A stretch of DNA of 34,470 nt from an archaeon GW2011_AR18 (GTDB taxonomy: Archaea; Nanobdellota; Nanobdellia; SCGC-AAA011-G17; GW2011-AR18). The stretch lies in contig JWKX01000010.1 in assembly GCA_000806155.1 (NCBI GenBank), positions 1 through 34,470 of the forward strand, in the 5' to 3' direction. Under the pieces are notes generated by a model. That model made no database searches, was not told where the DNA came from, and was given only the letters and a program-made list of their open reading frames with translations. Below are positions 6,889 to 27,031 of the stretch, in pieces. A program made the position numbers and the translations under genes. Positions within the stretch are counted from its first letter, which is position 1. Every line of letters begins with the position of its first letter.

Positions 6889-9800
6889 ATGGTTTTGTTC
6901 AAAAAAAAGGTTAAGCCTGGTGATTACGAGCTTCAGAGGGATGGTGCTGAGGATGTTCTTCATATTAATTATGATTCTTATCCCAGGATTGCTTCTATAG
7001 AAGATGATGCTCTTGTTATGTCTTATGTCATTGAGGCTTTGTCACAAAACCCATCTGTTAACAGGATTATTTTTCATCAGAAGAAGAAATATGAATATGG
7101 TCATCACCAGACTGTTTTGCTAGTTGAGATTGCTACTATATATAATCATTTTATTAAGCAAAAAAAGTTTTTATCTCAGGCAGCTTTAGAAGTTTTTGGT
7201 CCTATTGAAGATTCTAATAATAAGATAAAAAATCTCCAGTATATTATCCTTAATTTATTAAAGACAGATCCTATTGGCGCTTTTGTTGAATCTAAAAGAT
7301 TCTTGAGAGAAGAAAAAATTAATCTATTAAGTTCTTCAGAAGATTATAAAATTAGATTGCAGCCTTATATTATTTTATTATCTGAGATTTATAATCTGTT
7401 AGCTAATACTAAGCTTCTATCTTTATGCAAAGATAAGATTGATGGTTACGAGACAGGTTCTAGGGATATTTACAAGTCTATATTCAAGCCTTCCATTACT
7501 CCTGATTTTATGTATACAAGATTGATTTCTACCCCACCTTTGAATGCTCAGATGCTTGATTCTTATTCTGTTGGAAAGAATGTTAATATTCAGATTTTTA
7601 ACACTAAAGATAATATCAAACCATTATATCATATCACCCCTCCTGAATTTTTGATTTCTGAAGATAAATATGAATTATTAGATCTCGCTAGAAAAGTTTT
7701 ATCAGAACACCAGCCTAAAGCTGAAGAATTTTTAGATGTTGAGAAGATGAGAGAGACTTTCTTTAATATTGGTAAGGATCTTTTGACTGAGTTGGCTGAT
7801 AATAAAAATATCTCTCTTACTTATCCTGAGATAGAAGAACTAGCACAGATTTTAGTTCGTTATACTGTAGGATTTGGATTGATTGAAAGTTTGTTGATGG
7901 ATGATAATATTCAGGATATTGCTATTAACAGTCCAGCTGGTGTTACATCTATCTTTGTTGTTCACGGTAAATATGATGAGTGTATTACTAATATTGTTCC
8001 CTCTATTGAGGATGTTGAGAGCTGGGCTTCTAAGTTTAGATTAATTTCAGCTAGACCTTTGGATGAAGCCAATCCTGTTCTTGATACTGAATTATCTATT
8101 CCTGGTGCTCGTGCTAGAATTGCTGTTATCACAAGACCATTGAATCCTACTGGTTTGGCTTTTTCTATTAGAAGACATAGAGATAAACCTTGGACTCTTG
8201 CCTTATTTATTAAAAATAATATGATCTCAGATCTTGGTGCTGGGTTATTATCTTTTTTTATTGATGGTGCTAGAACATTATTAATTGCTGGTACTCGTGG
8301 TTCTGGTAAGACAAGTTTGATTGGTTCTGTTCTTGTTGAAATTATGAGGAAATATAGAATTATTGTTGTTGAAGATAGTGTTACTGGAGATGCTGAAATT
8401 TTAGTTAAAAAAGGTAATAAAATTGAAAAAACTACAATTGGTAACTTAGTTGATTCAAGTATAAACAAATATCGGTCTTGGTATGATTTATCAGATTCAG
8501 AGGTTTTAGGTAATGATGAGAATATAGAAGTTTTATCAAAAACTAAACAAAATAAAGTAATATGGGCTAAACCAACAAGGTTGATAAGACATAAAGTAAA
8601 TAAGAGAATATATGAAATAAGAACTAGAACTGGTAGAATTATCAAGGTTACAGAAGACCACTCTTTATTTTCTCTTGATGAGAATACTGAAGTAAGTGAA
8701 ATTAAACCTACAGCTCTTCGGAAAGGTTCATTTATAGCTGTACCAAGAAAGATTCCATTTAATGAAAAAGATATTTTTAAAATAAATCTTTTGGAATATT
8801 TAGATAAATTAAGTTCTGGTTTTATTGAAGGTGAAAGTTTAAAGGTTTTTATAAAAGAGAATTATCAAGAAATTAAACAATTATCAAGAGAACATAAATA
8901 TACAAGATCAATGGTCCCAAGATGGGCAAGAAAAGGTATAATACCTATAAAAATACTCAAAGATTTAGATTGTTTAAACAAAAAGATACAAGACTGTAAA
9001 GATTTATATTTCAAAAATGCTTCAAATGCAGAAAGAATACCAATTATTATTGATTTAAACGAAGATATTTTGACTTCTGTAGGTATTTGGTTAGCAGATG
9101 GGTGTTATGATAAAAGATCTATTATCTTTTCCACATTCGATATAGAAGATCGTGATGTTGTAAATAAAGTAGCAGATTATTTTAATTTTGAAACTAAAAT
9201 CCATAGTGATGGAGGTTCTCATATGATAAATTCTTCATCATTAAGAACTATTTTTAGAGAAGTTTTGGAACTAAAAGGAGATGCATATACTAAAAAAGTC
9301 CCAAATTGGGTATTTAATCTTTCAAAAAAACAAATCTCTTTTGTAATTAAAGGATTAATTAGTGGTGATGGGCATGTTTCTAAAAATGAAATTTCAATTT
9401 CTTTATGTTCTAGACAATTATTGAAGGATTTACAAACTTTATTGCTAGGTTTTGAATTAAATCTTAGAATAAACAACAAAATGAAAGAAAAAGATAAGAC
9501 TTATCACTCTACTATAAGTTCTGTTAAAAATTTAATTGCATTTAAAGAGAATATTGGGTTATTGCAGGGTTATAAGAAGAAAGATTTAAACATATTATGT
9601 AAGAGAATATCAACACATGATACTACAGATATTATTCCTTTAAATTTAGAGTTTAAGAGATCATTGAAAGAATATATAAAAAAAGAAAGAATATTTAATG
9701 GACAGGATTATATAAAAAGAGATAATAATGTTGGCAGAGAGAAACTTAAAAGTTTATTATCGCAGGAACAGATTCAGGAGTTTAAACAAATAGAAAATTT

Positions 9801-10116
9801 AAAATTATTAGCTTATTCTGACATTTTTTGGGATGAAGTTTTAGAAATAAATATCTTGGAATTAGGAGAGATTAATGTTTATGATTTATCAATTCCAGAA
9901 TCTGAAAGTTTCATATGTAATAACATGATATTACATAATACTGCAGAGCTTCCGGTTAGTGCTTTATCTAAAATGAATTATAATATCCAGCCTATGAAAG
10001 TTCGTTCTGCATTATTAAAATCTGGTTCTGAACTTTCTGCTGATGAGGGTATAAGAACAAGTTTGCGTATGGGTGATTCTGCTTTAATAATGTCCCTTCA
10101 ATGGACTTTGATTTAA
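6889..10116 (+). CDS. archaeal secretion/pilus ATPase (GspE/TadA/ArlI-like), N-terminal part with intein 1; broken downstream
   Basis: This 1075-residue reading frame contains the N-terminal domain of an archaeal type II/IV secretion ATPase (1-about 440), Walker A G-T-R-G-S-G-K-T (468-475), and V-V-E-D at 493-496. Intein 1 follows (497-1017), then host sequence resumes as T-A-E-L-P-V-S-A-L-S-K to G-D-S-A-L-I-M (about 1068). After that only seven out-of-family residues precede a stop. In homologues this point continues into the Walker B-region motif G-E-V-R and the C-terminal half, found here in another frame at 10101-12143. The ATPase would energise prepilin assembly with the T2SF protein downstream. 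TATA-like CTATAAAAA lies about 25-30 nt upstream of the ATG. Confidence 0.85.
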   Translation: MVLFKKKVKPGDYELQRDGAEDVLHINYDSYPRIASIEDDALVMSYVIEALSQNPSVNRIIFHQKKKYEYGHHQTVLLVEIATIYNHFIKQKKFLSQAALEVFGPIEDSNNKIKNLQYIILNLLKTDPIGAFVESKRFLREEKINLLSSSEDYKIRLQPYIILLSEIYNLLANTKLLSLCKDKIDGYETGSRDIYKSIFKPSITPDFMYTRLISTPPLNAQMLDSYSVGKNVNIQIFNTKDNIKPLYHITPPEFLISEDKYELLDLARKVLSEHQPKAEEFLDVEKMRETFFNIGKDLLTELADNKNISLTYPEIEELAQILVRYTVGFGLIESLLMDDNIQDIAINSPAGVTSIFVVHGKYDECITNIVPSIEDVESWASKFRLISARPLDEANPVLDTELSIPGARARIAVITRPLNPTGLAFSIRRHRDKPWTLALFIKNNMISDLGAGLLSFFIDGARTLLIAGTRGSGKTSLIGSVLVEIMRKYRIIVVEDSVTGDAEILVKKGNKIEKTTIGNLVDSSINKYRSWYDLSDSEVLGNDENIEVLSKTKQNKVIWAKPTRLIRHKVNKRIYEIRTRTGRIIKVTEDHSLFSLDENTEVSEIKPTALRKGSFIAVPRKIPFNEKDIFKINLLEYLDKLSSGFIEGESLKVFIKENYQEIKQLSREHKYTRSMVPRWARKGIIPIKILKDLDCLNKKIQDCKDLYFKNASNAERIPIIIDLNEDILTSVGIWLADGCYDKRSIIFSTFDIEDRDVVNKVADYFNFETKIHSDGGSHMINSSSLRTIFREVLELKGDAYTKKVPNWVFNLSKKQISFVIKGLISGDGHVSKNEISISLCSRQLLKDLQTLLLGFELNLRINNKMKEKDKTYHSTISSVKNLIAFKENIGLLQGYKKKDLNILCKRISTHDTTDIIPLNLEFKRSLKEYIKKERIFNGQDYIKRDNNVGREKLKSLLSQEQIQEFKQIENLKLLAYSDIFWDEVLEINILELGEINVYDLSIPESESFICNNMILHNTAELPVSALSKMNYNIQPMKVRSALLKSGSELSADEGIRTSLRMGDSALIMSLQWTLI
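8377..9939 (+). mobile_element. intein 1 of the secretion ATPase, with LAGLIDADG endonuclease
   Basis: This is a 521-residue in-frame intein (ATPase residues 497-1017). It begins with Ser as the splicing nucleophile (S-V-T-G-D-A-E-I-L), has block B T-R-T-G-R-I-I-K-V-T-E-D-H-S-L-F, and ends I-L-H-N with Thr as the first residue of the C-extein. Two LAGLIDADG motifs, V-G-I-W-L-A-D-G and G-L-I-S-G-D-G-H, keep their acidic residues, so homing activity is possible. It interrupts the host motif directly after V-V-E-D. Base usage is clearly A-richer than the T-rich extein, consistent with horizontal origin. Confidence 0.92.
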
Positions 10117-11504
10117 AATTTAAATTAAAAAAATTAAAAGCCTTTGTTAAACATCCTAAAAGAAAAAAATTATTGGAGGTTATAACAAGGACTGGAAGAA
10201 AGATTACTGTAACTCCAGATCACAGTTTGTTTACTAATAAAGACTTTAGAATAATTCCAATAGAATGTCAAAATTTAAGTATAAAAAGTAAGATTATAAT
10301 ACCAGAAAAGTTGCCTTCAAATTATAACAATATTCAATCTATAAATTTATTTGAAATGTTAGAAAATGAAAATTGTAGGCTTGAAGGATATGAAGAGGAT
10401 TTAAGACAAATAATTCAAAAGATAGGGTATAAGAAAGCTAGTGAAATTTCTTCCTGCACTCAGGATATATATCAGTACTTAAGACCGGGAATTCAACACA
10501 CTAATATTTTAATTTCAGATTTTAAAAAATTAACTCAAGAAGCTAATCAGAATTTAAACACTAAAACTCTTCAGATTAAAAAAGGAACAAGTGGTACATT
10601 GCCTGCAGAAATAGAATTAACTAAAGATTTTTGCAGATTCTTAGGATATTATGTTGCAGAAGGTTATACACAAGAATCAGGTAGTGTTGTTTTTTCTAAT
10701 GGGGATGATATTATTATTAAAGATATAATAGCTCTGTCTGAAAAATTATTTGGTATAACACCATATGTAAGAAAAACAGAAAGTTTAGGCATTTCTACAC
10801 AAATTACTTTAAATAATAAAATTTTAGGATTATTAATAAAAAAACTTGATTGTGGACGCATAGCTTTAGAAAAAAGAGTTCCTCCAATAATATTTGGATT
10901 ATCTGAAGATAAAATTTGTGAATTCTTTAAGGGTTATTTTGACGGTGATGGTTCACAAACTTCTAAGATATATTCTGGCAATAGAATTGCTTGTAGTACA
11001 ATTTCTAAAGATTTAGCAGATGGTTTATTATACTTATTTTTAAGTTTAGGTATTGTAGCAAGAGTTTATGAAAAAGAACCTCGGGGAATAGGAAAGCATA
11101 AACAATATACTATAGAATTTAAAGAAAAAAGATTTGTTGAATTATTCATTAGTAAAATAGGTTTTAAAAAATACAAAAAAGAATTAATTAATAGAGGATT
11201 TTCTCACACCAAGTTTAATAATGTAAATTATGACCCTAAAATTTTAGAACAACATGTTATATTAAAACACAAATTTAGGCATTTAAGAAGATATAGTTCA
11301 TGTGGTAAGCTTTATCTTAAAAAGGTTGTTGATGAATGTGGTGGAAGTGATTTAATAAAAAACTTTGTTAATGGTGAATTTTTCTTAGATGAAGTAAAAT
11401 CTATAAAGGAAATAAACCTAGAAGAAGGAGAATATGTTTATGACTTGTCTGTAGAACCATGTCAGAACTTTATTGGAGGTTTTGGAGCTGTAATGTTACA
11501 TAAT
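10101..11504 (+). mobile_element. intein 2 of the secretion ATPase, N-terminal block missing
   Basis: About 468 residues remain. They include D-F-D-L-K-F-K-L-K-K-L-K-A-F-V-K-H-P, block B T-R-T-G-R-K-I-T-V-T-P-D-H-S-L-F, LAGLIDADG motifs L-G-Y-Y-V-A-E-G and F-K-G-Y-F-D-G-D-G, and the C-terminal M-L-H-N followed by Thr. Block A with its Cys/Ser nucleophile is absent, so this copy cannot splice as written. The insertion point would be just after the Walker B-region G-E-V-R(-S). Block B and the HN|T junction resemble intein 1, so the two may be related, but the sequences are not close copies. Confidence 0.85.
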
Positions 11505-12143
11505 ACTGAAGCGCTCGCTCTTTTTGAGGCTATGCGTACTGGTGCTCTTGCTAATACTGTTGCTGGCACTATTCATGGTGATTCTCCTTATGGTGTTTTT
11601 GATAGGATTGTTAATGATCTTCAAGTTCCTCGTACTAGTTTTAAGGCTGCTGATATTATTATTGTTGCTAATCCTGTTCGTTCTGCTGATGGTCTTCATA
11701 AATTCAGGAGGATTACTCAGATTACTGAAGTTCGTAAACAATGGGAGGAAGATCCTCTTAAGGAAGGTGCTTTTGTTGATCTGATGGTTTATGATTCTAA
11801 AACTGATTCTTTGCTTCCTACTGATGAATTGATTAATGGTGATTCTGATATCATTAAAGCTATTGGTGGTTCTGTTAAGGAATGGGCTGGTGACTGGAAT
11901 GCTATCTGGAGTAATATTGTTTTAAGGTCTAAGATTAAAAGAACTATTGTTGATTATTCTGTTAAGTATAATATCCCAGATTTATTGGAAGCTGAATCTG
12001 TCATTTTCATGAATGATGAATTCCATAGGGTGATGGATATTGTTCGTGAATCTTCTGGTAGTTTAGACTCTGAAAAGATTTTTGTTGAATGGGAGAAGAG
12101 ATTGAAAGATCATATTCAGAATGTTTTTAATATCCAATTATAA
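10101..12143 (+). CDS. secretion ATPase C-terminal part with truncated intein 2
   Basis: This 680-residue open frame starts inside a second intein that lacks its N-terminal splicing block. The intein ends at M-L-H-N (residue 468) and the host sequence resumes T-E-A-L-A-L-F-E-A-M-R-T-G-A-L-A-N, then T-I-H-G-D-S-P-Y-G-V (His-box region) and A-N-P-V-R-S-A-D-G-L-H-K-F-R-R, all conserved in archaeal GspE/TadA-type ATPases. The frame differs from the upstream half, and homologues would have G-E-V-R plus the intein's first 50-75 residues in between. As written, this piece has no credible start of its own: the first ATG lies mid-domain with no ribosome site. Confidence 0.8.
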   Translation: MDFDLKFKLKKLKAFVKHPKRKKLLEVITRTGRKITVTPDHSLFTNKDFRIIPIECQNLSIKSKIIIPEKLPSNYNNIQSINLFEMLENENCRLEGYEEDLRQIIQKIGYKKASEISSCTQDIYQYLRPGIQHTNILISDFKKLTQEANQNLNTKTLQIKKGTSGTLPAEIELTKDFCRFLGYYVAEGYTQESGSVVFSNGDDIIIKDIIALSEKLFGITPYVRKTESLGISTQITLNNKILGLLIKKLDCGRIALEKRVPPIIFGLSEDKICEFFKGYFDGDGSQTSKIYSGNRIACSTISKDLADGLLYLFLSLGIVARVYEKEPRGIGKHKQYTIEFKEKRFVELFISKIGFKKYKKELINRGFSHTKFNNVNYDPKILEQHVILKHKFRHLRRYSSCGKLYLKKVVDECGGSDLIKNFVNGEFFLDEVKSIKEINLEEGEYVYDLSVEPCQNFIGGFGAVMLHNTEALALFEAMRTGALANTVAGTIHGDSPYGVFDRIVNDLQVPRTSFKAADIIIVANPVRSADGLHKFRRITQITEVRKQWEEDPLKEGAFVDLMVYDSKTDSLLPTDELINGDSDIIKAIGGSVKEWAGDWNAIWSNIVLRSKIKRTIVDYSVKYNIPDLLEAESVIFMNDEFHRVMDIVRESSGSLDSEKIFVEWEKRLKDHIQNVFNIQL

Positions 12144-12224: not shown

Positions 12225-12779
12225 ATGAATAAATTAAAGACTGGTCATGTTTTATTGCTTGCAACTTTTGTTGCTCTTATTGTTTCTTTTGGTGTTACAA
12301 CTTTTACTGGACAAGTAACTGGATCGCAGTCTGCTTCAGCTATGAAGTATGCTAAACCTGTTTGTGATGTTATTGATATTCAGTCAAATTTAACAATTTT
12401 AGCAGCTGTTAACCCTAGAATTAGAGGAGCAGACTTTAACAGGAGTATTACTGCTTCACAAGCTTGCAGTTCTATGAATCCTAGTTATAGATGTGTGGGT
12501 ACTTTTTCAGAATTAAAAACACATAATAGAATACAATCTCCTGTTTATCAGAGAATACCTGATCGTCCTTGGTATAGTTTGACTAATAATCCTAGTTATG
12601 TAACTATAGGTGTGGATATAAATACTGTAGAAACATTTGAAAAAGATGATTGTAACAGTGTATTAGGTGGTCCTGCAATATATGATTCTAGTGATGTTGA
12701 TAATCCTGCATTAATAGGCCCTCAATATTATCGTTCCATTAAAACATATAATAAGGCACTCTGCTGTAAATTAGAATAA
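12225..12779 (+). CDS. secreted Cys-containing protein between ATPase and T2SF genes
   Basis: This 184-residue protein has a short basic start (M-N-K-L-K-T-G-H) and a hydrophobic helix at about 9-31, ending near T-F-T-G-Q-V-T-G, so it is exported or anchored by an N-terminal signal. The mature part carries Cys in K-P-V-C-D-V, Q-A-C-S-S, Y-R-C-V-G, D-D-C-N-S and a terminal C-C-K, suggesting disulfides, plus the aromatic motif D-R-P-W-Y. No family is recognised. GGGGATGA precedes the ATG. Its location in the motor section suggests a secreted or pilus-associated component rather than a classic pilin, since it lacks the KKG/KKA motif. Confidence 0.65.
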   Translation: MNKLKTGHVLLLATFVALIVSFGVTTFTGQVTGSQSASAMKYAKPVCDVIDIQSNLTILAAVNPRIRGADFNRSITASQACSSMNPSYRCVGTFSELKTHNRIQSPVYQRIPDRPWYSLTNNPSYVTIGVDINTVETFEKDDCNSVLGGPAIYDSSDVDNPALIGPQYYRSIKTYNKALCCKLE

Positions 12780-12852: not shown

Positions 12853-13191
12853 ATGTCTGAAAATCCTGATGATATACTAAATAAATATCGTAAGAAGATT
12901 AATGATCATGTTGATAAGGATACTTTAGGTCAAGTTTCTGACTCTTCAGATGCTTCTTTCTCTAATGAATACTCTAAATTTCGTGATGAGATTACTTCTT
13001 CTAAACGTTCTAGTTATGAACAATGGTGTAATTTTGCTGAACGTGTTATTAAATTCAGTCCCTCTCCTAAGATTCTTTCATCTTTAGAGACAGCTTTTTG
13101 CTCTTCAGGGTATGGATTTCGCGAACTTTCCAATTTTCACTTTATTAGTTTTTTTAATTACTGGATTATTATCTTTTGTTTATCTTCCTAG
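12853..13191 (+). CDS. T2SF/TadC-like membrane protein, N-terminal fragment
   Basis: The authentic part is residues 1 to about 82 (12853-13099). It has a hydrophilic Ser/Asp-rich tail, then S-Y-E-Q-W-C-N-F-A-E-R-V-I-K-F-S-P-S and I-L-S-S-L-E-T-A-F, as in N-termini of archaeal TadC/ArlJ-like proteins. Beyond the run of five T at 13095-13099 the frame becomes nonsense. Dropping one T would read L-E-T-A-F-A-L-Q-G-M-D-F-A-N-F-P-I-F into the next fragment, so fragments 1 and 2 are one gene split by a single-base insertion. A ribosome-like AAGAGGTATT precedes the ATG. Confidence 0.7.
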   Translation: MSENPDDILNKYRKKINDHVDKDTLGQVSDSSDASFSNEYSKFRDEITSSKRSSYEQWCNFAERVIKFSPSPKILSSLETAFCSSGYGFRELSNFHFISFFNYWIIIFCLSS

Positions 13192-14044
13192 GATTCCTAT
13201 TTATATTGCAACTAGATGGCGTCTTCAGGCTAGCAATCAGATGGTTACATGTATTTTATATGTTGTAATCTACATGAGACATACTTCTAATCTTGAACAC
13301 GCTATTAAATTTGCAGCTCAACATATTGACGCTCCTTTATCTTTGGATTTGAGAAAGATTTTTTGGGATATGGAAACTCGTAAGTTCTCAACTATTAAGG
13401 AATCTTTGGATAATTATCTTGAATCTTGGAGACATTATAATCTAGAATTTGTTACTTCATTTCATCTTATTGAATCTTCTTTGTATGAACCATCTGATTC
13501 TAGAAGATTAGACCTGTTGGATAAATCTCTAAGTGTTATTCTTGAAGGGACTTATGAGAAGATGCTTCACTATGCTCAGGAAATTAAAAGTCCTATTACC
13601 ACTTTGCACATGTTAGGCGTTATCTTGCCTATTCTTGGTTTAGTTATATTCCCATTGTTAGGTGCTTTCCTTCAAGGGTTGGTTAAGTGGTATCATCTTG
13701 CTTTCATTTATAATATTGTATTGCCATTAATGGTTTATATTTTTGGTATGAATATCTTATCTAGAAGACCTACTGGTTATGGTAACTCTAAGATTATCAA
13801 TTCTGTTTATGAGAGAGGTTTCAATCCTTTCTGGTTGTGTTTCATGATTGCATCGTTCTTCATAATTATAGGTTTATTTCCTTTAGTAATTAATATTTTA
13901 AATCCTCCATCTGCTGTTGATGGTTCTGCTTGTTTATCTAATGATATTGACTTAGGTAAGTTAGGTTGTTTTTTTGGGTTTATTAATTTCCAGAATTCTG
14001 TTTATGGTCCTTTACCGAGTTTTCATCAGCTCTTTTCCAGTTAG
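13112..14044 (+). CDS. T2SF/TadC-like membrane protein, central fragment
   Basis: This 310-residue frame holds the first membrane helices (F-T-L-L-V-F-L-I-T-G-L-L-S-F-V-Y-L-P), the first cytosolic T2SF helical bundle (N-Q-M-V-T-C-I-L-Y-V-V-I-Y-M-R-H, and I-K-S-P-I-T-T-L-H-M-L-G-V-I-L-P), and further helices up to N-S-V-Y-G-P. The last residues (L-P-S-F-H-Q) are read-through after a junction near 14011. Homologues continue with two membrane helices and a linker of roughly 55-60 residues before the second T2SF bundle. The ATG at 13112 is an internal Met, not a likely start. In archaeal pili this protein is the inner-membrane platform contacting the ATPase. Confidence 0.75.
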   Translation: MDFANFPIFTLLVFLITGLLSFVYLPRIPIYIATRWRLQASNQMVTCILYVVIYMRHTSNLEHAIKFAAQHIDAPLSLDLRKIFWDMETRKFSTIKESLDNYLESWRHYNLEFVTSFHLIESSLYEPSDSRRLDLLDKSLSVILEGTYEKMLHYAQEIKSPITTLHMLGVILPILGLVIFPLLGAFLQGLVKWYHLAFIYNIVLPLMVYIFGMNILSRRPTGYGNSKIINSVYERGFNPFWLCFMIASFFIIIGLFPLVINILNPPSAVDGSACLSNDIDLGKLGCFFGFINFQNSVYGPLPSFHQLFSS

Positions 14045-14076
14045 GTAACAGGATTGGTGATGGTATTCCTACTGAG

Positions 14077-14808
14077 ATGGCTTTTAGTAGTGTTTCTAAA
14101 ACTTTGGAAGGCACTCCTTCTGGTAATTTCTTCAAAGCTGTTGATACTAATATCAGGCAGTTGGGTATGGGTATTAATGAAGCTTTATTTAATCCTAAGA
14201 ATGGTGCAATTTTGTCTTATCCATCACCTTTGATTGAGAGTTCAATGGAAGTTTTATTGGAAAGTTCTCGTAAAGGTCCATCTATTGTCTCTCAGTCTTT
14301 GATTAGTATCTCTACTTATATTGAGAGGATTCACAAAGTTTCTGAGAGATTGAAAGATCTATTGGCTGAGGTTATTTCTTCTATGAAGGCTCAGATATCT
14401 TTCTTGACTCCTGCTATTGCTGGTATTGTTGTTGGTATCTCTGCTATGGTTGTTAATATTATTGTAAAACTTAATATGAGTCTTTCAGTTACCTCTTTTG
14501 AGGGTGGTAGTGCTGATGTTGCTGGTTCTGCTGGTGGTTTGACTGCTCTTGTTGATTTATTCTCAGTTAATGGTATTATTCCTAGTTACTGGTTCCAGTT
14601 GGTTGTTGGTATTTATGTTGTTGAATTAGCTTTTGTTTTGACTATTTTACAGAATGGTATTGAGAATGGTTCTGATAAGATCAACGAACAATATTTATTA
14701 GGTAAAAATCTTGGTAAGAGCTTTTTATTATATGCCATTATTGCTTTTATTGTTACTTTGTTATTTACTTTCATGGCTCAGGGTATTTTACAAGGTGAAC
14801 TAGTCTGA
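14077..14808 (+). CDS. T2SF/TadC-like membrane protein, C-terminal fragment
   Basis: The second T2SF bundle and last helices are here: S-K-T-L-E-G-T-P-S-G, I-R-Q-L-G-M-G-I-N-E-A, L-I-E-S-S-M-E-V-L-L-E-S, and L-L-A-E-V-I-S-S-M-K-A-Q-I-S-F-L-T-P-A-I, then about three transmembrane segments to the end. Upstream of the first ATG the same frame already reads conserved sequence (E-F-S-S-A-L-F-Q-L-G-N-R-I-G-D-G) from 14017, so translation truly begins earlier and the ATG at 14077 is not the native start. It is therefore the 3' part of a single T2SF gene spanning 12853-14808. Confidence 0.75.
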   Translation: MAFSSVSKTLEGTPSGNFFKAVDTNIRQLGMGINEALFNPKNGAILSYPSPLIESSMEVLLESSRKGPSIVSQSLISISTYIERIHKVSERLKDLLAEVISSMKAQISFLTPAIAGIVVGISAMVVNIIVKLNMSLSVTSFEGGSADVAGSAGGLTALVDLFSVNGIIPSYWFQLVVGIYVVELAFVLTILQNGIENGSDKINEQYLLGKNLGKSFLLYAIIAFIVTLLFTFMAQGILQGELV

Positions 14809-14842: not shown

Positions 14843-14971
14843 ATGGATAAAAAAGGTGATAGTATGCCTTTATGGCTTATTGTATTATTGATTTCTGCTG
14901 TTATTCTTTTAGCTCTTGGATTCTTGATTATTAAAAATAAAATAATTGACGGAGTGTTTAGAGGAATATGA
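14843..14971 (+). CDS. 42-residue prepilin-like protein 1
   Basis: The sequence starts M-D-K-K-G-D-S-M-P-L-W-L-I-V-L-L and runs through a hydrophobic helix to a short basic-hydrophobic tail. The K-K-G preceding a hydrophobic helix resembles archaeal class III signal peptides cleaved after the Gly by a prepilin peptidase. At 42 residues it is essentially just the helix. It follows a TATA box directly and its TGA overlaps the next ATG (ATGA), so it leads the first co-translated block. Confidence 0.6.
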   Translation: MDKKGDSMPLWLIVLLISAVILLALGFLIIKNKIIDGVFRGI

Positions 14972-16071
14972 ATAAAAAAGGTTTAGAGAAAGAGCAGCTT
15001 GTATACTTGATAATTACAGTTTTAATAATATTTTTTATTAGTACAACAGGTTATGCTGCTTACAAAAGAACTTCTAGCGCTTCTAATATTGCTATTGTCC
15101 AGTCTTGGGTTAATGAAAAAAGTGCTGTTAATAGTATTCCTATTGCAGGTTCTTCTATACCTATTCCAGACAGACCTCCTATTACTGAATTAGATGAACC
15201 CTACATTGTTTATGAAAAAGATTTGGAATGGAATAATGATAAAGCCCCTAAATTATATTATGAAATTGCGAATTCTATGGTTGATTGCTATAATGCTTTC
15301 AATAATGGTAAAATAGATTTTATTGATAATATTAATAGAGATGTTTTCTGTTTCTCTTGCAGGCAGTTTGCTTTTGAAGATAAGATAAAGAATGATAAAG
15401 TTGTCCTTAAGGATTTTAAAAAATTCTTGCAAGATGAGAAGATAGGTATTATTCAGGATAAAACTTATGCTCAATTGATTGATTATGGGAAAGTTCCTAA
15501 TATTCAGGTTGATAATTCTGATATTGTTATTGACAATAATCTTTATGTTTATTATGTTGCATTTTCTGGAAGGAAATTCACTCAGATTTTAGGTGAAGTT
15601 ACAGGTTTTGAAACTGATACATCTATTGAAAATAATTTGCAGGATGCTGCTGAAACTTCAAGGGATATAGCTGCAGGTACAGGTAGTTCAGCTCTTAAAT
15701 CAGGTATTCAGGCTGCACAGAATGATCTTCCTTGGAAGAGTGTCTTGAATGATATTGGCAGCTCTGCTGCTAAAGCTAGTAAATCTGAAGCTTTTCTTCT
15801 TAATATTGGAAAAGTTTTAGGTGAAAAAGGTCTTAAAGTTGTTCCTATTCTTGGTTGGGGTCTTACAGCTTATGATACTGGTAAAGGTACTTATAGAATT
15901 ATTTGGGGAGATAAACCATTCCCTTCAGCTGTTACTGTAGCAAATGCTGAACAAGTTAATAGTCTCTGTAATGAAAAAGTTGATGATATTAGAGTTCCTT
16001 CACAACCTGTAGATATTGCAGATAATTCTAGAAGGCTTGAAGATAGTAGTTCTGGAGGTTTAGCTTCATGA
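14968..16071 (+). CDS. prepilin-like protein 2, large, Cys-containing
   Basis: This 367-residue protein begins M-N-K-K-G-L-E-K-E-Q-L-V-Y-L-I, with a helix at about 10-32 and then a long extracytoplasmic part. It has C107 and the motif F-C-F-S-C at 127-131, D/N-rich loops, and an Ala/Ser-rich helical stretch (230-280) followed by a hydrophobic segment V-V-P-I-L-G-W-G-L-T. The class III-like start suggests assembly by the same pilus machinery, possibly as a tip or adhesin-like minor pilin because of its size. No known family is recognised. It is coupled by ATGA overlaps on both sides. Confidence 0.65.
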   Translation: MNKKGLEKEQLVYLIITVLIIFFISTTGYAAYKRTSSASNIAIVQSWVNEKSAVNSIPIAGSSIPIPDRPPITELDEPYIVYEKDLEWNNDKAPKLYYEIANSMVDCYNAFNNGKIDFIDNINRDVFCFSCRQFAFEDKIKNDKVVLKDFKKFLQDEKIGIIQDKTYAQLIDYGKVPNIQVDNSDIVIDNNLYVYYVAFSGRKFTQILGEVTGFETDTSIENNLQDAAETSRDIAAGTGSSALKSGIQAAQNDLPWKSVLNDIGSSAAKASKSEAFLLNIGKVLGEKGLKVVPILGWGLTAYDTGKGTYRIIWGDKPFPSAVTVANAEQVNSLCNEKVDDIRVPSQPVDIADNSRRLEDSSSGGLAS

Positions 16072-16226
16072 AATTTAAAAAAGCTGATTTCGAATTCGAG
16101 TCTATAATCAAGCTATTGATAGTATTGATTGCTCTCTTTATCATTATTGGTTTAATATTTATGTTCAAGAAAAGTTCTTCTGCTTCAGTCACTAAAGTTT
16201 TTGATTTGTTGAGGTTTGGCAGGTAA
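16068..16226 (+). CDS. 52-residue prepilin-like protein 3
   Basis: The start is M-K-F-K-K-A-D-F-E-F-E-S-I-I-K-L-L-I, with K-K-A in place of K-K-G before a helix at about 13-32, then a short polar tail (K-K-S-S-S-A-S-V-T-K) ending L-L-R-F-G-R. The Glu two to five residues after the cleavage position recalls the Glu of type IV pilins, although position 5 is not strictly kept. The ATG overlaps the previous TGA, and the next gene starts one base after its TAA. Confidence 0.6.
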   Translation: MKFKKADFEFESIIKLLIVLIALFIIIGLIFMFKKSSSASVTKVFDLLRFGR

Positions 16227-16227
16227 T

Positions 16228-17220
16228 ATGAATATCCCCCTTGAAAAAATTGTTAAATGGGCAATAATCCTTATTGCATTCTTATTGTTGCTTTTTTGGG
16301 TTACTCCTGCTTATGGTAAACTAAAAGTTGCAATTTTTGGCAATTCATCTTCTGATGTTATTGTTGATAAGTCTATATCAGAAATTAGGAATCTTTTCTT
16401 TGACCATATTGTTAGTGATTATCAATCATGTAAATATTCTAAAGATATTAATTGTTATTGTCCTATAAGAAATACTAATATCCCTCAAGGTTTTGTTGTT
16501 GAAATATCAAATATTAATGATAATTCTATAATTAAACTTCACAAGAAAGCAACTATTTCTGGTGGTGTTGTTAATGATTATTCTCTGTCTGCTGTTGATG
16601 GTTCTGATATCACTTCTATTGAGGTTAATATTGGTGATGATAAGTTATTTGTTGAGAATACTGCTTATGGTGATCCTACAATGCTTTCTGATACTTCATT
16701 GGATTTTAAGGATTTCCTGACTACAGATAAAGTCTATCTTGAATCATCTGATCTTTATACTACGGCAGACTTAAAAGGACGTAACAAGATTGATTTCTCT
16801 AAAGGTATTATTTACAAAAAAGATCAACAGAGGACTTTCTTATTGAATAAAATTAATGATTTAGCTAGATGTTCTACTATTCCTAATGTTGATAAGGCTC
16901 TTAACAATTTTGATTCTGTTATCTCATCATTTGATAAATGTAATAAAAAAGATAATAATAAATGTGCGGCTTTTATTCAGTCATTGCCTTCTGATTATTT
17001 ATTAAAAGCTGAATCTTCAAACTTAAATCTTTATTACAAGAATGAAAAAATTAAATCTGCTGATTTCAGGATATCTTGTATACTTAATAGTTTCAATAAC
17101 CCTTCAAAAGAATTGTCAGGTAAATTTAATGGTTTAATCTTTAATGATTACTCAACTATTGATTTCTATTCTTATGATGATGGTTCTGTATGTGTTGCTG
17201 TTCAGGATAAAATCCGATAA
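16228..17220 (+). CDS. prepilin-like protein 4
   Basis: This protein has 330 residues from ATG 16228 (M-N-I-P-L-E-K-I-V-K-W-A-I-I-L). An in-frame TTG at 16216 would add four residues but lies inside the previous stop region and has no better ribosome site. It has an N-terminal helix at about 9-26, then an exported domain with S-C-K-Y-S-K-D-I-N-C-Y-C-P, further Cys in L-A-R-C-S, D-K-C-N and N-K-C-A-A, and a C-terminal D-G-S-V-C-V-A-V. It lacks the KKG motif but shares layout and operon with its neighbours. No family is recognised. Confidence 0.65.
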   Translation: MNIPLEKIVKWAIILIAFLLLLFWVTPAYGKLKVAIFGNSSSDVIVDKSISEIRNLFFDHIVSDYQSCKYSKDINCYCPIRNTNIPQGFVVEISNINDNSIIKLHKKATISGGVVNDYSLSAVDGSDITSIEVNIGDDKLFVENTAYGDPTMLSDTSLDFKDFLTTDKVYLESSDLYTTADLKGRNKIDFSKGIIYKKDQQRTFLLNKINDLARCSTIPNVDKALNNFDSVISSFDKCNKKDNNKCAAFIQSLPSDYLLKAESSNLNLYYKNEKIKSADFRISCILNSFNNPSKELSGKFNGLIFNDYSTIDFYSYDDGSVCVAVQDKIR

Positions 17221-17227
17221 ACAAAAC

Positions 17228-17238
17228 CTTTATATATA
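17228..17238 (+). promoter_or_regulatory. TATA box for the second prepilin-like block
   Basis: CTTTATATATA lies 31-41 nt before ATG 17269, and TTTAGGTGATTTA supplies a Shine-Dalgarno site (AGGTGAT), so the mRNA has a short leader. Confidence 0.55.
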
Positions 17239-17268
17239 ATCTTAGATGAGAATATTTTAGGTGATTTA

Positions 17269-17685
17269 ATGTTTAACAAAAAAGGTCAGAGTATGCCAAT
17301 GAATGTTATTATTGTTGGTATCATAGTTCTTGTTGTTTTAGTTATTATTGTAGCTTTCTTTGCTGGTGGTTTCAATAGTTTAGGCAATAAATTCAAGGAT
17401 ATTTTTAGTGGTCAGGCTGGTGGTCAGGCTTTGGATCTTACAATTCAGACTTGTCAGTCTAGTTGTGAGAATGCTCAAAATCTTCCTGGTTCATCTCAGG
17501 CTAAGTCTAGTTATTGTACATCTACTTATATTGTGGATACTGACTCTAATCCAAGTACAGCTCCTGAAAAAGTTAAATGTGGTTCTGTTAGTAATGCAGA
17601 TTTGACAATTTCATCTTCTGAAGAGAAGAGGGGTGTTGTTAAGACTGGGGACTTAGGTGTTGAGTGCGATATTAGTTGCAGTTAA
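17269..17685 (+). CDS. class III signal peptide protein, prepilin-like 5
   Basis: This 138-residue protein is the clearest pilin candidate: M-F-N-K-K-G-Q-S-M-P-M-N-V-I-I-V-G-I-I-V carries K-K-G, Q-S and a long Ile/Val helix, the hallmark of archaeal class III signal peptides. The exported part is Gly/Ser-rich with Cys in Q-T-C-Q-S-S-C, S-S-Y-C, V-K-C-G and the terminal E-C-D-I-S-C-S. It could be a major pilin. The next gene begins one base after its stop. Confidence 0.75.
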   Translation: MFNKKGQSMPMNVIIVGIIVLVVLVIIVAFFAGGFNSLGNKFKDIFSGQAGGQALDLTIQTCQSSCENAQNLPGSSQAKSSYCTSTYIVDTDSNPSTAPEKVKCGSVSNADLTISSSEEKRGVVKTGDLGVECDISCS

Positions 17686-17686
17686 A

Positions 17687-17857
17687 ATGAAAAAAGCTCA
17701 ATCTTTGCCTTTGAATACTATTGTTATCTTGATTATTATTCTAGTTGCTGCTTTTCTTATTATATTATTTATCTCTAAGTATGGTTCTCAATTAGGGTTT
17801 AATTTTGGTCAGCAGGTTGATAATGTTATTAACTTGACTAATGATGCTAAACCATAA
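17687..17857 (+). CDS. 56-residue prepilin-like protein 6
   Basis: The likely start is ATG 17687 (M-K-K-A-Q-S-L-P-L-N-T-I-V-I-L-I), one base after the preceding stop. An upstream in-frame ATG at 17657 would put a hydrophobic segment before the class III motif and is rejected. K-K-A-Q-S-L-P-L-N matches the previous protein's K-K-G-Q-S-M-P-M-N, so the two are related. After the helix there are only about 25 residues. Confidence 0.65.
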   Translation: MKKAQSLPLNTIVILIIILVAAFLIILFISKYGSQLGFNFGQQVDNVINLTNDAKP

Positions 17858-17860
17858 GTA

Positions 17861-17883
17861 ATATATACTAAATTTTCTTTATT
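17861..17883 (+). promoter_or_regulatory. promoter block for the third prepilin-like block
   Basis: TATATACTAAATTTT followed by CTTTATTA lies about 25-45 nt before ATG 17906. The same order recurs upstream of the radA operon (26573-26590). An AAGAGGTATTG ribosome site follows. Confidence 0.45.
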
Positions 17884-17905
17884 AAATTATAAAAGAGGTA
17901 TTGAA

Positions 17906-18880
17906 ATGAAGAAGAAAGCAATTCTTGGTGTTACTCCTGAAATACTTGTAGGTATTATTGTTGCTGTTATGTTTATTATTGGTCTTGTTTTTATAGCAGC
18001 TCCTAAATTAATTAAATTACTTCCAGGTCAGCAATCTAGTAATGAATGTTCTAATATTGCAGAATGGAATAATATTAAGTCTGTTCTTGAAAAATTTGAT
18101 TCTTCTGAATTATCATCTTCTGAATCTCCATTCTATAATAAAGAGTGTAATCTTGTCAGTTTTACTTTATCTCAAGGTTTAGGTAAGATTAAGCCTGCTT
18201 TCAATATTAATTCTGAATCTCAGTTATGTCTTTGTAATATAGAAGATGATCTTTGCAGGCAGAGTTCTTGTTATATCTTAAAGAATTTTAATGCTATTAA
18301 TTCTCAGCAGTTTGAGACTTCTGATTTTAAGGATTATCTTATATTGAAATTTGTTAAAGATGGCAAGACTTTGTTGATTAATCCTATTGGTGATAAGAAA
18401 GAACCAGAACCAATATTGTATTCTTATTCTGAACAGTTTAAGATTTTTGATGAATCTAATATTGTTAATTCATTGACTCTGGAATTTAAGAGCACTGAAG
18501 TAAATTCATTTATTCCTTTGGTAGAGTCTAAGCAGCCAGAACAATTTAATCCTGTTGGTGTAACTATAGTTCCAGGATTTACTTCTTATTTTTCTATTAA
18601 AATAATAAAACCTGTTGAGGATCTTCCTTTGTCTTCTGTTAAGTCTAATCCAGAATTTATTGATAATAATGCTGTTGCCTTTGCTCATGTTGTATTAAAT
18701 ATTCCTTCAGAAAAGTTAGCTCTTATCAATGATGAACCTGCTATTTATTATTTGACTGATGATTGGCATTCATCTCAATTATCATGCGTTAAAGATACTG
18801 AAAAGAATTCTTTATGTTCAGCAGATATTGATGGTTTTTCAAATGATTTTATCTTATCAGTTAAACCAGGTGCAACATGA
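17906..18880 (+). CDS. prepilin-like protein 7
   Basis: This 324-residue protein starts M-K-K-K-A-I-L-G-V-T-P-E-I-L-V, with a helix at about 14-32 ending A-A-P-K-L. The exported domain has the Cys cluster L-C-L-C-N-I-E-D-D-L-C-R-Q-S-S-C, and a later β-rich part (P-G-F-T-S-Y-F-S-I-K-I) with C-V-K-D-T and L-C-S-A-D. AAGAGGTATTG is its ribosome site. The last codons overlap the next ATG (ATGA). No family is recognised; a minor pilin or pilus-bound adhesin is inferred from the signal and operon. Confidence 0.65.
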   Translation: MKKKAILGVTPEILVGIIVAVMFIIGLVFIAAPKLIKLLPGQQSSNECSNIAEWNNIKSVLEKFDSSELSSSESPFYNKECNLVSFTLSQGLGKIKPAFNINSESQLCLCNIEDDLCRQSSCYILKNFNAINSQQFETSDFKDYLILKFVKDGKTLLINPIGDKKEPEPILYSYSEQFKIFDESNIVNSLTLEFKSTEVNSFIPLVESKQPEQFNPVGVTIVPGFTSYFSIKIIKPVEDLPLSSVKSNPEFIDNNAVAFAHVVLNIPSEKLALINDEPAIYYLTDDWHSSQLSCVKDTEKNSLCSADIDGFSNDFILSVKPGAT

Positions 18881-19263
18881 ACAAGAAAGGTGATATTTTA
18901 GATCTGCAGTTAGTCTGGGTTATAGATCTTATACTCTTTACTTTTTTGATCATTACTTATTTTGCTATTGATTCAAGGATAAAGAATAGCGAACTTCATG
19001 ATATTCATATGACTGCTCGTGAGGTTGCAATGACTTATGATGCTGTTAAATCTTCTCCTCATGATGTTGTTTATTCTTTAAATTTCAAGGATAATCTTGC
19101 TGTTAATTTTGATAAAGATACTTGTACTGTTTTTGTAAAATCTAAAAAACCAGGTGATACTTTAAATTCTAAATCTTATTGTGGTAAGAATAATTTTTTA
19201 GTTGTTAATGATAATATTATGAATGACAGGGTGGTTTTATCTAAAAATGAACAAAAGGGCTGA
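18877..19263 (+). CDS. prepilin-like protein 8
   Basis: This 128-residue protein begins M-N-K-K-G-D-I-L-D-L-Q-L-V-W-V-I, followed by a helix to about residue 30, then M-T-A-R-E-V-A-M-T-Y-D-A, which resembles the amphipathic spine of archaeal minor-pilin-like proteins. Two Cys lie in D-T-C-T-V and S-Y-C-G-K. Its ATG overlaps the previous stop (ATGA), and its end overlaps the next start by 17 bases. Confidence 0.65.
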   Translation: MNKKGDILDLQLVWVIDLILFTFLIITYFAIDSRIKNSELHDIHMTAREVAMTYDAVKSSPHDVVYSLNFKDNLAVNFDKDTCTVFVKSKKPGDTLNSKSYCGKNNFLVVNDNIMNDRVVLSKNEQKG

Positions 19264-19747
19264 TGCTGGAAACTTTTTGCAGCTTTTCATAAAGTTTATT
19301 CCAGTTTTTATAGTATCAGGTTTTATTGCTATTGTTGCTTGGAATTATCTTAATGAAGATATTAATACTCACAATTTAGAGACTTATATTTTAACTAAAG
19401 ACTTATTGTATTCTGATTCCTGTCTTGCTTTATCAGACTCTAATGTTCATCCTATGACTATTGATGTCAAGAAAATTTCAGATGAAAAACTTGCCTCTTG
19501 TTTTACTAAATCAAATATGGGTTACAGGATTACTTTATTAGATAAAGATAAGAATGAAGTTAAATCAGCTAAATCTTTGACTGTAAGGCAGGAGGGTTAT
19601 CTTGTTAAGACTAAGAGTGGTTATCCTGTTTGTAAGTCTATTCCTGAATATCGTTGCTCTCAAAGGATTGATCCTATTTTATATTCTTCAGATGATAATA
19701 AAAAATTAGGTTTCCTTGTTACTGAGGTGATTAATTTTGTTGGGTAA
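19247..19747 (+). CDS. prepilin-like protein 9
   Basis: This protein has 166 residues from ATG 19247 (M-N-K-R-A-D-A-G-N-F-L-Q), chosen because it puts a K-R-A class III-like motif at the N-terminus. An in-frame ATG at 19223 adds eight residues of unlike character. The helix is at about 12-33. Cys occur in D-S-C-L-A, A-S-C-F-T, Y-P-V-C-K and Y-R-C-S-Q, again a disulfide-prone exported domain. It overlaps both neighbours. Confidence 0.65.
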   Translation: MNKRADAGNFLQLFIKFIPVFIVSGFIAIVAWNYLNEDINTHNLETYILTKDLLYSDSCLALSDSNVHPMTIDVKKISDEKLASCFTKSNMGYRITLLDKDKNEVKSAKSLTVRQEGYLVKTKSGYPVCKSIPEYRCSQRIDPILYSSDDNKKLGFLVTEVINFVG

Positions 19748-20237
19748 GAAAGGTGCTGATTTCGGTATGGGTCTTACAATGATTCCCTCTATAATAATTC
19801 TTATTATAATATTAACATTCTATTTTTTCCTTTTCATAATCCTAGGTTTTGGTAAATCTCCTGACTTGATTATAAAAGCTGATTCTTATTCTGATTCTTC
19901 TAAAATTCTTGTATTAGTTAATGTTCCTATTGGTGAATCCACTCTTTCTGAATCAATAATTAATAACATTGATGATAAAGAACAATTAAAAAAATTAGAA
20001 CCTGAAATAAATAGTATTATTAAATCTCTTCCAGTTCCTATTCGTAAGAATGCTTTCTGGAATTTTATTGTATCAAGGAATGATGAAGAATTATTTAGTA
20101 TTAGGGAGTCTACTATTGCGTCTTCTGATTATTATAGACAATCAATTAATATTCCATTAAAGGATAAATCATTATTGAATATGGAATTATATCTCGACTG
20201 TAATAGTTGTACTGAGGAGGATCTTGCAGTAATATGA
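19737..20237 (+). CDS. prepilin-like protein 10, TTG start
   Basis: This 166-residue protein starts at TTG 19737 (or TTG 19740), giving M-L-G-K-K-G-A-D-F-G-M-G-L-T with a helix at about 16-38. TGAGGTGATT lies just upstream as a ribosome site, supporting the non-ATG start. The exported part is Ile/Ser-rich with L-D-C-N-S-C near the end. Its TGA overlaps the next ATG. No family is recognised beyond the class III-like N-terminus. Confidence 0.6.
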   Translation: MLGKKGADFGMGLTMIPSIIILIIILTFYFFLFIILGFGKSPDLIIKADSYSDSSKILVLVNVPIGESTLSESIINNIDDKEQLKKLEPEINSIIKSLPVPIRKNAFWNFIVSRNDEELFSIRESTIASSDYYRQSINIPLKDKSLLNMELYLDCNSCTEEDLAVI

Positions 20238-21112
20238 ATAAGAAAGCAGATTTGTTCATGCCAATGTTTGTTCTCACATCTTTCATAGTCTTGGCTCTAT
20301 TATTTTATACAATAAGTTCTACTAATGCTAAAAGGAACGATCTTATTGGTGCAAGTTCTATTGCTTTGATAAAAGTTTATGATGAAGGAGAAAAAGTATT
20401 ATATTATATAGATAAATCTTCTCATATGAGCTTTGATTCTGCTTATAATAGGATTGCCAATAATGGAGGATATTATTCTTCAGATGATTGTGACCAGATT
20501 AATGGTTACCTTATTATTAATCACTGCAAGGAAGATTTCAATCCTTATGAGAATTTCAAAAAACTTTTCTCTGAGGATATGAATTCTTATCTTAAAGTTT
20601 ACAAGAGTTCTTATAATGAATTCAAGCCTGAAGATATAACATTATCATCAACTTTCAATTTTTTTGGTTTTATTCCTGATGAAGTTAAGCCTGATGATGA
20701 ATACTCTTATAAGTCTTTATTGGAAAAGCCTGTTAATAATCTTCAGATATCTAGTTTCGATTTTAAAGATAATGAACTTAATGTTCTTTATTCAGATGTT
20801 AAATTTCATGTTGAGCCTGTTAAATCAAGTCCTTTAGCTTCATCTTATTATACTATTCACCCTAAATTCTCTGTAGATATAGATGATTTTGAGATTTATA
20901 ATAGATTATATGCTTCTATTGCTGTTAATTGTATTAATAAAAATCATGAATCATGTAATAATATTTTAGTATCATCTTTCTCTAATATAGAATTTGAGCA
21001 GGTAGGTAATATAATTAAATTAACTCTCCCTTTGAAATATTCTACTATTAGGATGGCTTTTGATAACTCTAAACCATTGAAGCAGCTTGATCTATTCAAA
21101 TCATCACAATAA
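20234..21112 (+). CDS. prepilin-like protein 11
   Basis: This 292-residue protein begins M-N-K-K-A-D-L-F-M-P-M-F-V-L-T-S, with a helix at about 10-28, then an exported domain with D-D-C-D-Q, N-H-C-K-E, N-C-I-N-K-N-H-E-S-C-N-N, and mostly β-type sequence. It closes the prepilin-like run. The following 61 bases contain the TATA-like promoter of the RPA gene. Confidence 0.65.
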   Translation: MNKKADLFMPMFVLTSFIVLALLFYTISSTNAKRNDLIGASSIALIKVYDEGEKVLYYIDKSSHMSFDSAYNRIANNGGYYSSDDCDQINGYLIINHCKEDFNPYENFKKLFSEDMNSYLKVYKSSYNEFKPEDITLSSTFNFFGFIPDEVKPDDEYSYKSLLEKPVNNLQISSFDFKDNELNVLYSDVKFHVEPVKSSPLASSYYTIHPKFSVDIDDFEIYNRLYASIAVNCINKNHESCNNILVSSFSNIEFEQVGNIIKLTLPLKYSTIRMAFDNSKPLKQLDLFKSSQ

Positions 21113-21173: not shown

Positions 21174-22142
21174 ATGATTCTAAAATACGAGGATATTATT
21201 GGTAAGATTCTTAGTTCTACTTCATTGCCTAGAGATCAGATTGAGTCTAAGATTGAACAGAAATTAAAAGATCTCCATGATTTGATATCTAGGGAGGGTG
21301 CAGCTCATATTGTTGCTAATGAATTAAGTGTTAAACTATTTGATAATACAATTATGGAACCTGGTAAGGCTCTTAAGATTCGTGAAGTTAAACCTGGTTT
21401 GAATTCTGTTAATCTTATAGCAAGAGTAATGACTATTTATGATACCAAAGAATTCAAGACTGATAAACGTCAGGGGAGGATAGGTTCATTTTTAGCAGGT
21501 GATGAGACAGGCAGTACTAGGATTGTTGTCTGGGATGAAAAGATAATTTCAGAGATGAAAGAACTTCAGGAAGGCAATATTGTCAAGATTAATAATGCTT
21601 ACTCTAAAGTAAATAATAAGAATTATACTGAACTTCATTTAGGTAGTAAGTCTCAGCTTATTATTAATCCTAAGAACGAGACAGTTCCAGAAATAAAGAT
21701 AAATATGACATCTTCTAGGAAGACTATTAAAGATCTTCAGCCTAATGATTTTGTCGAAGTTTATGGTACAATTGTTGAAGTTTTCGAGCCTAAGTTCTAT
21801 CAGGCATGTCCTGTTTGTAATCGTAAAGTTTTATTCAATAATGATTTTTTCAATTGTCAGGAGCATAATAAAGTAGAACCTAAGTCTGTTCCTATTGTTA
21901 ATATTGTTCTTGATGATGGCACTGGTAATGTTAGGATGGTTTGTTTCCGTGATGTTGCTGAAAAGATTATTGGTAAAGTTCAATCTGGTTTTGATGCTGT
22001 TAAACATGAGAATAAAGGAAGGCAGATTGCTGTAAAAGGTAAAGTTTCCAAGAATGAGATGTTTGCTAGGACTGAGTTGATTGCTTCTTCTATTGAGGAT
22101 TTGGATCCTGCTAAGCTTTTGGCTGAATTGGAAGGTAATTAG
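21174..22142 (+). CDS. RPA-like single-stranded DNA-binding protein (OB folds, Zn finger)
   Basis: This 322-residue archaeal replication protein A-type protein binds ssDNA in replication and repair. An N-terminal helical region (1-55) is followed by an OB fold at about 75-165 (K-R-Q-G-R-I-G-S-F-L-A-G-D-E-T-G-S-T-R-I-V-V-W-D). A second OB fold from about 190 contains a zinc ribbon: C212, C215, C228, H231 (C-P-V-C and C-Q-E-H). D-D-G-T-G-N-V-R-M-V-C-F follows. It has its own promoter (TTTTTATATT about 25 nt upstream). Length and layout fit archaeal RPA41-like proteins. Confidence 0.85.
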   Translation: MILKYEDIIGKILSSTSLPRDQIESKIEQKLKDLHDLISREGAAHIVANELSVKLFDNTIMEPGKALKIREVKPGLNSVNLIARVMTIYDTKEFKTDKRQGRIGSFLAGDETGSTRIVVWDEKIISEMKELQEGNIVKINNAYSKVNNKNYTELHLGSKSQLIINPKNETVPEIKINMTSSRKTIKDLQPNDFVEVYGTIVEVFEPKFYQACPVCNRKVLFNNDFFNCQEHNKVEPKSVPIVNIVLDDGTGNVRMVCFRDVAEKIIGKVQSGFDAVKHENKGRQIAVKGKVSKNEMFARTELIASSIEDLDPAKLLAELEGN

Positions 22143-26767: not shown

Positions 26768-27031
26768 ATGGCAAAACCAATAAAAAAGTACAGGTCAGGT
26801 CAGTTAGAAGCCGCTATCTGGGAGAATGATAGAGAAGTGAATGGGAATATTGTTTCTTTTAAGACTGTTAGCTTAAGAAAGAGCTGGCATGATAAAGAAA
26901 AAAATATCTGGAGAGACAGTACAATCCAGTTGAGAAGAAATGACATACAGAGGGTTCTTGTTGTCTTGCAGAAGGTGCAGGAAGACTTATTATTAGCACA
27001 AGAAGGTGAAGGAGATGATGAAGATGAGTAG
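26768..27031 (+). CDS. small conserved archaeal protein cotranscribed with radA, possibly DNA-binding
   Basis: This 87-residue protein reads [18 protein letters not shown], then [28 protein letters not shown], and a helix with an acidic tail (E-G-E-G-D-D-E-D-E). The β-strands with alternating basic/aromatic residues, a C-terminal helix and an acidic tail resemble small ssDNA-binding, PC4/YdbC-like proteins, but this is by eye only. GGAATGGAGGAAAAC provides a strong ribosome site. Its end overlaps the radA start, so both are co-translated and a recombination or repair role is plausible. Confidence 0.6.

Follow-up and report, generated by a model that had tools for sequence, protein, structure and literature searches.

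What would an archaeon do with eleven prepilin-like genes placed side by side, three of which encode proteins of 42 to 56 aa? The question is raised by a stretch of DNA from archaeon GW2011_AR18 (assembly GCA_000806155.1, contig JWKX01000010.1, positions 1-34,470 of the forward strand), and this whole stretch of 34,470 nt is hereafter called the window. We compared its genes with those of related genomes, in which the same pilin-like proteins are found with additional domains that bear on their possible function.

The pilin-like genes of the window and the core machinery

The eleven ORFs (a1-a11) run in one direction from 14843 to 21112, as a preliminary description of this DNA had it, and several neighbours overlap by 4 nt, stop to start (Table 1). 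In ten of the eleven, where eight to ten had been claimed, a pattern-based search finds a hydrophobic stretch preceded by a class III prepilin signal of the form [KR][KR]-[GA]; only a4 (likely start ATG 16228) departs from this, with a helix but no K-G/A. The starts of a6 and a9 were likewise corrected, to ATG 17687 and ATG 19247, respectively. None of the window pilins has a convincing family in Pfam or NCBIfam. The predicted structure of a11 consists of an N-terminal helix of 74 residues and a beta domain (pLDDT 81), and the shape of this model is that expected of a pilin, though a fold search against the PDB gave no meaningful match, solved pilins included. Chance ORFs are ruled out for a1-a11 by the conserved synteny and by HMM homologues throughout the order, and the matching sizes of the small proteins in relatives (44/54/58 aa in locus L007 and 42/50/57 aa in L008, against 42, 52 and 56 aa in the window) rule out that these minis are frameshifted pieces. 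A further ORF upstream (12225-12779) was considered as a twelfth pilin and rejected, as it has K-T instead of K-G/A and no homologue in the approximately 170 fetched loci; the ORF at 6272-6850 has no homologue there either. Residues ~230-330 of a2 are an insertion that includes a conserved hydrophobic segment (VVPILGWGLTAYD...YRIIWG); L007 has this insertion and L008 lacks it.

Table 1. Features of the window and corresponding values for the pilin slots across the order
Feature	Position	Strand	Length (aa)	Cys in window	Size in order (aa)	Median Cys in order	Description
TadA/FlaI-type secretion ATPase	6889..12143	+					Pfam T2SSE, Intein_splicing, LAGLIDADG_3; NCBIfam TadA/FlaI; two LAGLIDADG inteins
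TadC/FlaJ-type platform protein	12853..14808	+					tblastn with L007/L086 TadC; three ORFs in window
a1	14843..14971	+	42	0	~42 (36-44 in relatives)	0	minimal pilin, KKG signal
a2	14968..16071	+	367	4	~280	6	large pilin, KKG signal; C-terminal extra ~100 aa with hydrophobic segment
a3	16068..16226	+	52	0	~52	0	minimal pilin, KKA signal
a4	16228..17220	+	330	8	184-1031	6	N-terminal helix without K-G/A signal; heads in other families: SLT, or (degenerate) M23 plus metzincin-like domains
a5	17269..17685	+	138	6	~125	6	KKG signal, six conserved Cys; best-conserved pilin, candidate major pilin
a6	17687..17857	+	56	0	~60	0	minimal pilin, KKA signal
a7	17906..18880	+	324	8	160-570	8	large pilin, KKA signal; no head in window; heads in relatives: M15, SLT, Amidase_2, or SLT+Amidase_2
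a8	18877..19263	+	128	2		0	pilin-like, KKG signal
a9	19247..19747	+	166	4		4	pilin-like, KRA signal
a10	19737..20237	+	166	2		2	pilin-like, TTG start, KKG signal
a11	20234..21112	+	292	4	142-518	4	large pilin, KKA signal; no head in window; heads in relatives: M15, Amidase_2 or SLT
RPA-like OB-fold single-stranded-DNA-binding protein	21174..22142	+					Pfam; after a11 in most loci (synteny)
RadA	27006-29276						with intein
Laminin_G_3 protein	29360-33040		1226				Laminin_G_3 domains

A secretion ATPase (61-75% identity within the family) and a TadC platform protein are encoded upstream of the pilin run. Of the archaellum genes FlaH and FlaC/D/E, no copy was seen beside the ATPase gene. The preliminary description had named the absence of a prepilin peptidase as the observation that would speak against its pilin assignment; an A24 prepilin peptidase is encoded elsewhere in the 822-kb AR18 genome (G000:C14, E = 4e-14) and in nine of ten genomes of the window's family. 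However, each of these core parts carries deletions in the AR18 assembly when compared with relatives. The ATPase frame is broken near 10092-10116, where ~37 codons including the Walker B region are deleted relative to L086 and L007; the TadC gene, whose product has about 725-739 aa in relatives, has lost its frame through two deletions (~13107-13124 and 14011-14014) that remove ~36 and 42 codons; and the peptidase (L173:11401) is missing 20 codons at its start, among them that of the first catalytic Asp, together with the spacer to the neighbouring gene. These four deletions are of roughly 90-125 bp. It is conceivable, though somewhat doubtful in our view, that the AR18 system is a decaying remnant, which would be compatible with any functional reading for the relatives. 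Decay is suggested because every core part is hit while the other compared genes are intact, and a search of the whole AR18 genome for SLT, Amidase_2 and M23, three of the domain families fused to pilins in relatives (see below), gave no match. On the other hand, all eleven pilin ORFs are whole, and an error of metagenome assembly is suggested because the deletions are alike in size and affect those genes whose sequences differ least between related species. The reading of the cluster as a complex, disulfide-stabilised appendage holds for the type of protein, i.e., prepilin-like proteins of a type IV pilus system; given the deletions, the AR18 copy may or may not build a filament.

A locus shared by an order of Woesearchaeota

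The relatives that carry a name are classified as 'Candidatus Woesearchaeota' and include the complete genomes of GW2011_AR20 (CP010426) and CP066683. The order is represented by 103 genomes, 93 of which have TadC, and the region downstream of it was fetched from ~65 of these genomes and from 80 named loci, the records being partly shared; genes were called and assigned to slots with iterated HMMs, with the assignment of a1 and a6 resting more on position and size than on HMM score. The 38 complete loci, which extend from a readable TadC to the RPA gene, have a median of 11 pilin-like genes, 10 of them with a signal. The gene order is kept in these loci, minis included, with one to four genes (mostly two or three) of at most 75 aa per locus. 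A strict signal-plus-helix pattern is matched by 30-94% of the members of each slot, whereas 4 of the 50 proteins taken from these loci as controls match it. The predicted pilin set is not peculiar to AR18; it is a standard locus of the order, and the minis are standard members of it. It also outnumbers, as had been remarked, the pilin-like genes of a usual archaellum or Ups/Aap operon. In other Woesearchaeota, TadC mostly lacks this cluster beside it, and we therefore claim the system as described for this one order only; a5-like N-termini are spread wider in the phylum. The cluster of genome G004 (L008) contains, between a4 and a5, a gene pair identified by eye as nucleotidyltransferase-like and HEPN-like (L008:10378-11389).

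The cysteines had been described as pairs or C-x-C motifs. Pairing is borne out insofar as the slot medians across the order are even, and six cysteines in a5, three in a11 and two in a7 are invariant or nearly so; literal C-x-C motifs are few, with one in a4 and one in a7 of the window. These conserved cysteines fit disulfides.

The locus is commonly followed by the RPA-like gene: in 33 of 43 loci (script count), it lies downstream of a11, at most 400 nt away and on the same strand. This adjacency could be read as a sign of a pilus for DNA uptake or exchange, whose filament would draw in DNA while RPA handled the single strands and murein enzymes, such as those described below, opened the donor cells. 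We consider such a role very unlikely, as the adjacency can be plain synteny and other housekeeping genes follow as well.

Murein hydrolase-related domains on the pilins of relatives

In 20 of the approximately 100 genomes, a large variant of a4, a7 or a11 carries C-terminal domains related to murein hydrolases, and these heads sit on proteins with pilin N-termini. They belong to four families, viz., M15/VanX-like, Amidase_2, SLT transglycosylase and M23. Peptidase_M15 is fused to a11 in L007 and to a7 in L008 and L026, and Amidase_2 to a11 in L008 (1e-24) and to a7 in L041 (5e-30), L032 and L028, where the contig end cuts it. SLT is found on a7 of L027, L028 and L041 and on a11 of L071, with weaker cases in L045, L055 and L169, and it occupies slot a4 in G073, G100 and G102 (7.6e-27, 1.5e-20 and 3.8e-25). 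M23 is borne by a7 of L034 and by a4 of L083, L051, L053, L060 and L064. The M15 domain falls under the Pfam sequence cut-off; it has the HxxGxxxD and EWWH motifs, matches VanX in a PDB profile search (E 0.0019) and retrieves VanX (probability 0.96), as well as VanY and LdcB, in a fold search for which the M15 part of the model was of middling confidence.

As judged by eye, the catalytic residues look intact in 11 genomes (G002, G003, G004, G007, G008, G012, G070, G072, G073, G100 and G102). This applies to all three M15 domains, to Amidase_2 in the three complete copies and to the ES motif of SLT in G007, G008, G012, G072, G073, G100 and G102. Not every head retains them: the SLT domains of G038 and G042 have lost the catalytic Glu, the M23 domains of family f5 have lost their metal ligands, and M23 of G069 is doubtful. 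Such degenerate heads may bind instead of cut. The f5 slot-a4 proteins with lost M23 residues show a metzincin-type motif, HELGHKFGL (HELGHKFGL..DQY next to the degenerate M23 in L051:6363-8738, L053:6138-8588 and L083:4108-6426).

The heads are concentrated at the locus. Searches of 102 whole genomes gave 96 SLT, 14 Amidase_2 and 49 M23 loci, of which 10, 3 and 6, respectively, are found no farther than 9 kb downstream of TadC, where ~1% would be expected by length (P of 1e-7, 4e-4 and 2e-5, in a test that treats matches as independent even though the f5 genomes share ancestry). A fourth Amidase_2, that of G004, lies at 9.06 kb, and a 10-kb limit gives 4 of 14. Outside the pilus locus, many genomes encode giant proteins of ~2000-2700 aa (for example, L170:202-6699 of archaeon AR20) in which little besides a single SLT domain is recognised. 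The heads also change places. Three species of a single genus share an M15 domain (52-55% identity), which G002 carries on a11, whereas a7 is its carrier in G003 and G004; G004 in turn has an amidase on its a11. Heads thus move between scaffolds.

Based on these observations, we suggest that the cluster probably encodes the pilins for a conserved type IV pilus of the archaeal TadA/TadC type, on which relatives mount murein hydrolase-related heads for contact with bacteria. The A24 peptidase would trim the [KR][GA] leaders, and the ATPase and TadC would polymerise the subunits into an exported filament. Its shaft, the bulk of the filament, would consist of the six-Cys and best-conserved a5, and the three minis would lie as near-bare helices within the filament or at the base of it. 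The large Cys-rich a2, a4, a7 and a11 would be sparse subunits, probably at the tip. Since the hydrolase-related domains are interchangeable and several have apparently intact catalytic residues, contact with a neighbouring bacterium would expose that cell to murein-cutting enzymes displayed by the filament, in about one-fifth of the order's genomes. No murein synthesis is known from archaea of this kind. A more specific proposal, plausible but falling short of probable, is that of a pilus by which DPANN archaea breach walls on contact: exchangeable murein-cutting tip heads would let Woesearchaeota open bacterial walls; if so, bacteria would be the hosts or prey of the order.

In most loci of the order, no enzyme head can be detected. 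Five of the seven readable clusters in the window's own family carry one (G002, G003, G004, G007 and G008), and the window and G009 do not; domain searches found no hidden enzyme head in a2, a4, a7 or a11 of the window, which holds the putative scaffold pilins without one. The generality of the scaffold in the order, set beside heads in about one-fifth of genomes, some of them catalytically degenerate, and a headless window, would suit a pilus for general adhesion or host attachment, in which the enzyme domains of some relatives are incidental additions rather than what the system is for; type IV pili also serve episymbiosis in Saccharibacteria (PMC12206443). We regard this explanation as unlikely, because four unrelated enzyme families in three slots of one polymer, enriched at the locus and switching slots, are hard to call incidental. 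Much less likely still, the system might be a pseudopilus-type device for secretion or surface display, with pilin N-termini that merely anchor enzymes at the cell surface. The a4 protein, which bears SLT in three genomes, is indeed a membrane helix protein without cleavage signal; however, the remaining ten of the eleven subunits retain a prepilin signal, and proteins as small as the minis (42-56 aa) are best understood as parts of a filament. The contact-directed pilus remains our preferred reading. It matters because hosts have been identified for only a minority of the uncultivated DPANN archaea, and a pilus with murein enzymes in many relatives implicates bacteria as their partners, hosts or prey, which single proteins make testable. 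The system also suggests that pilins can act as interchangeable enzyme carriers.

Comparison with known systems

Class III signals occur on non-filament proteins in the Sulfolobus bindosome, whose ATPase model gives a weak match to the ATPase of the window; the bindosome bears sugar-binding proteins and not hydrolases. The Tad/Flp pili of bacteria have relatives of the ATPase and TadC and very short pilins, whereas eleven different pilins are present here. Murein-cleaving domains are also known from the archaeal peptidoglycan hydrolases, which kill bacteria and are prominent in Nanoarchaeota (Strock et al. 2025, PMC12352652). However, those enzymes have Sec or Tat signals or none recognised, and the words pili and pilin are absent from the main text of that study. 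The murein transglycosylases of 'vampiristic' Woesearchaeota concern the same archaeal group and the same hypothesis of an attack on bacteria; predation was proposed and GH23 genes were counted as such, with no link to a pilus and no word beginning with pili in the main text (Vigneron et al. 2022, PMC9723730). In searches of an open-access library, with few subscription papers or preprints, for work that joins these subjects, no title or abstract points to a hydrolase borne by a pilin.

Archaeal type IV pili, for which Makarova, Koonin and Albers gave a census in 2016 (PMC4858521), share the VirB11/TadA-type ATPase, TadC, class III prepilins, the A24 peptidase and modular pilin sets. The main text of that census contains no word beginning with Woese or DPANN, and pilins were not found for one ATPase clade of nanoarchaea. 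A definite pilin set can now be given for an order of Woesearchaeota, and it differs from the archaeal type IV pili of the census in its approximately 11 pilin slots of fixed order, its three minis and, in relatives of AR18, its enzyme heads.
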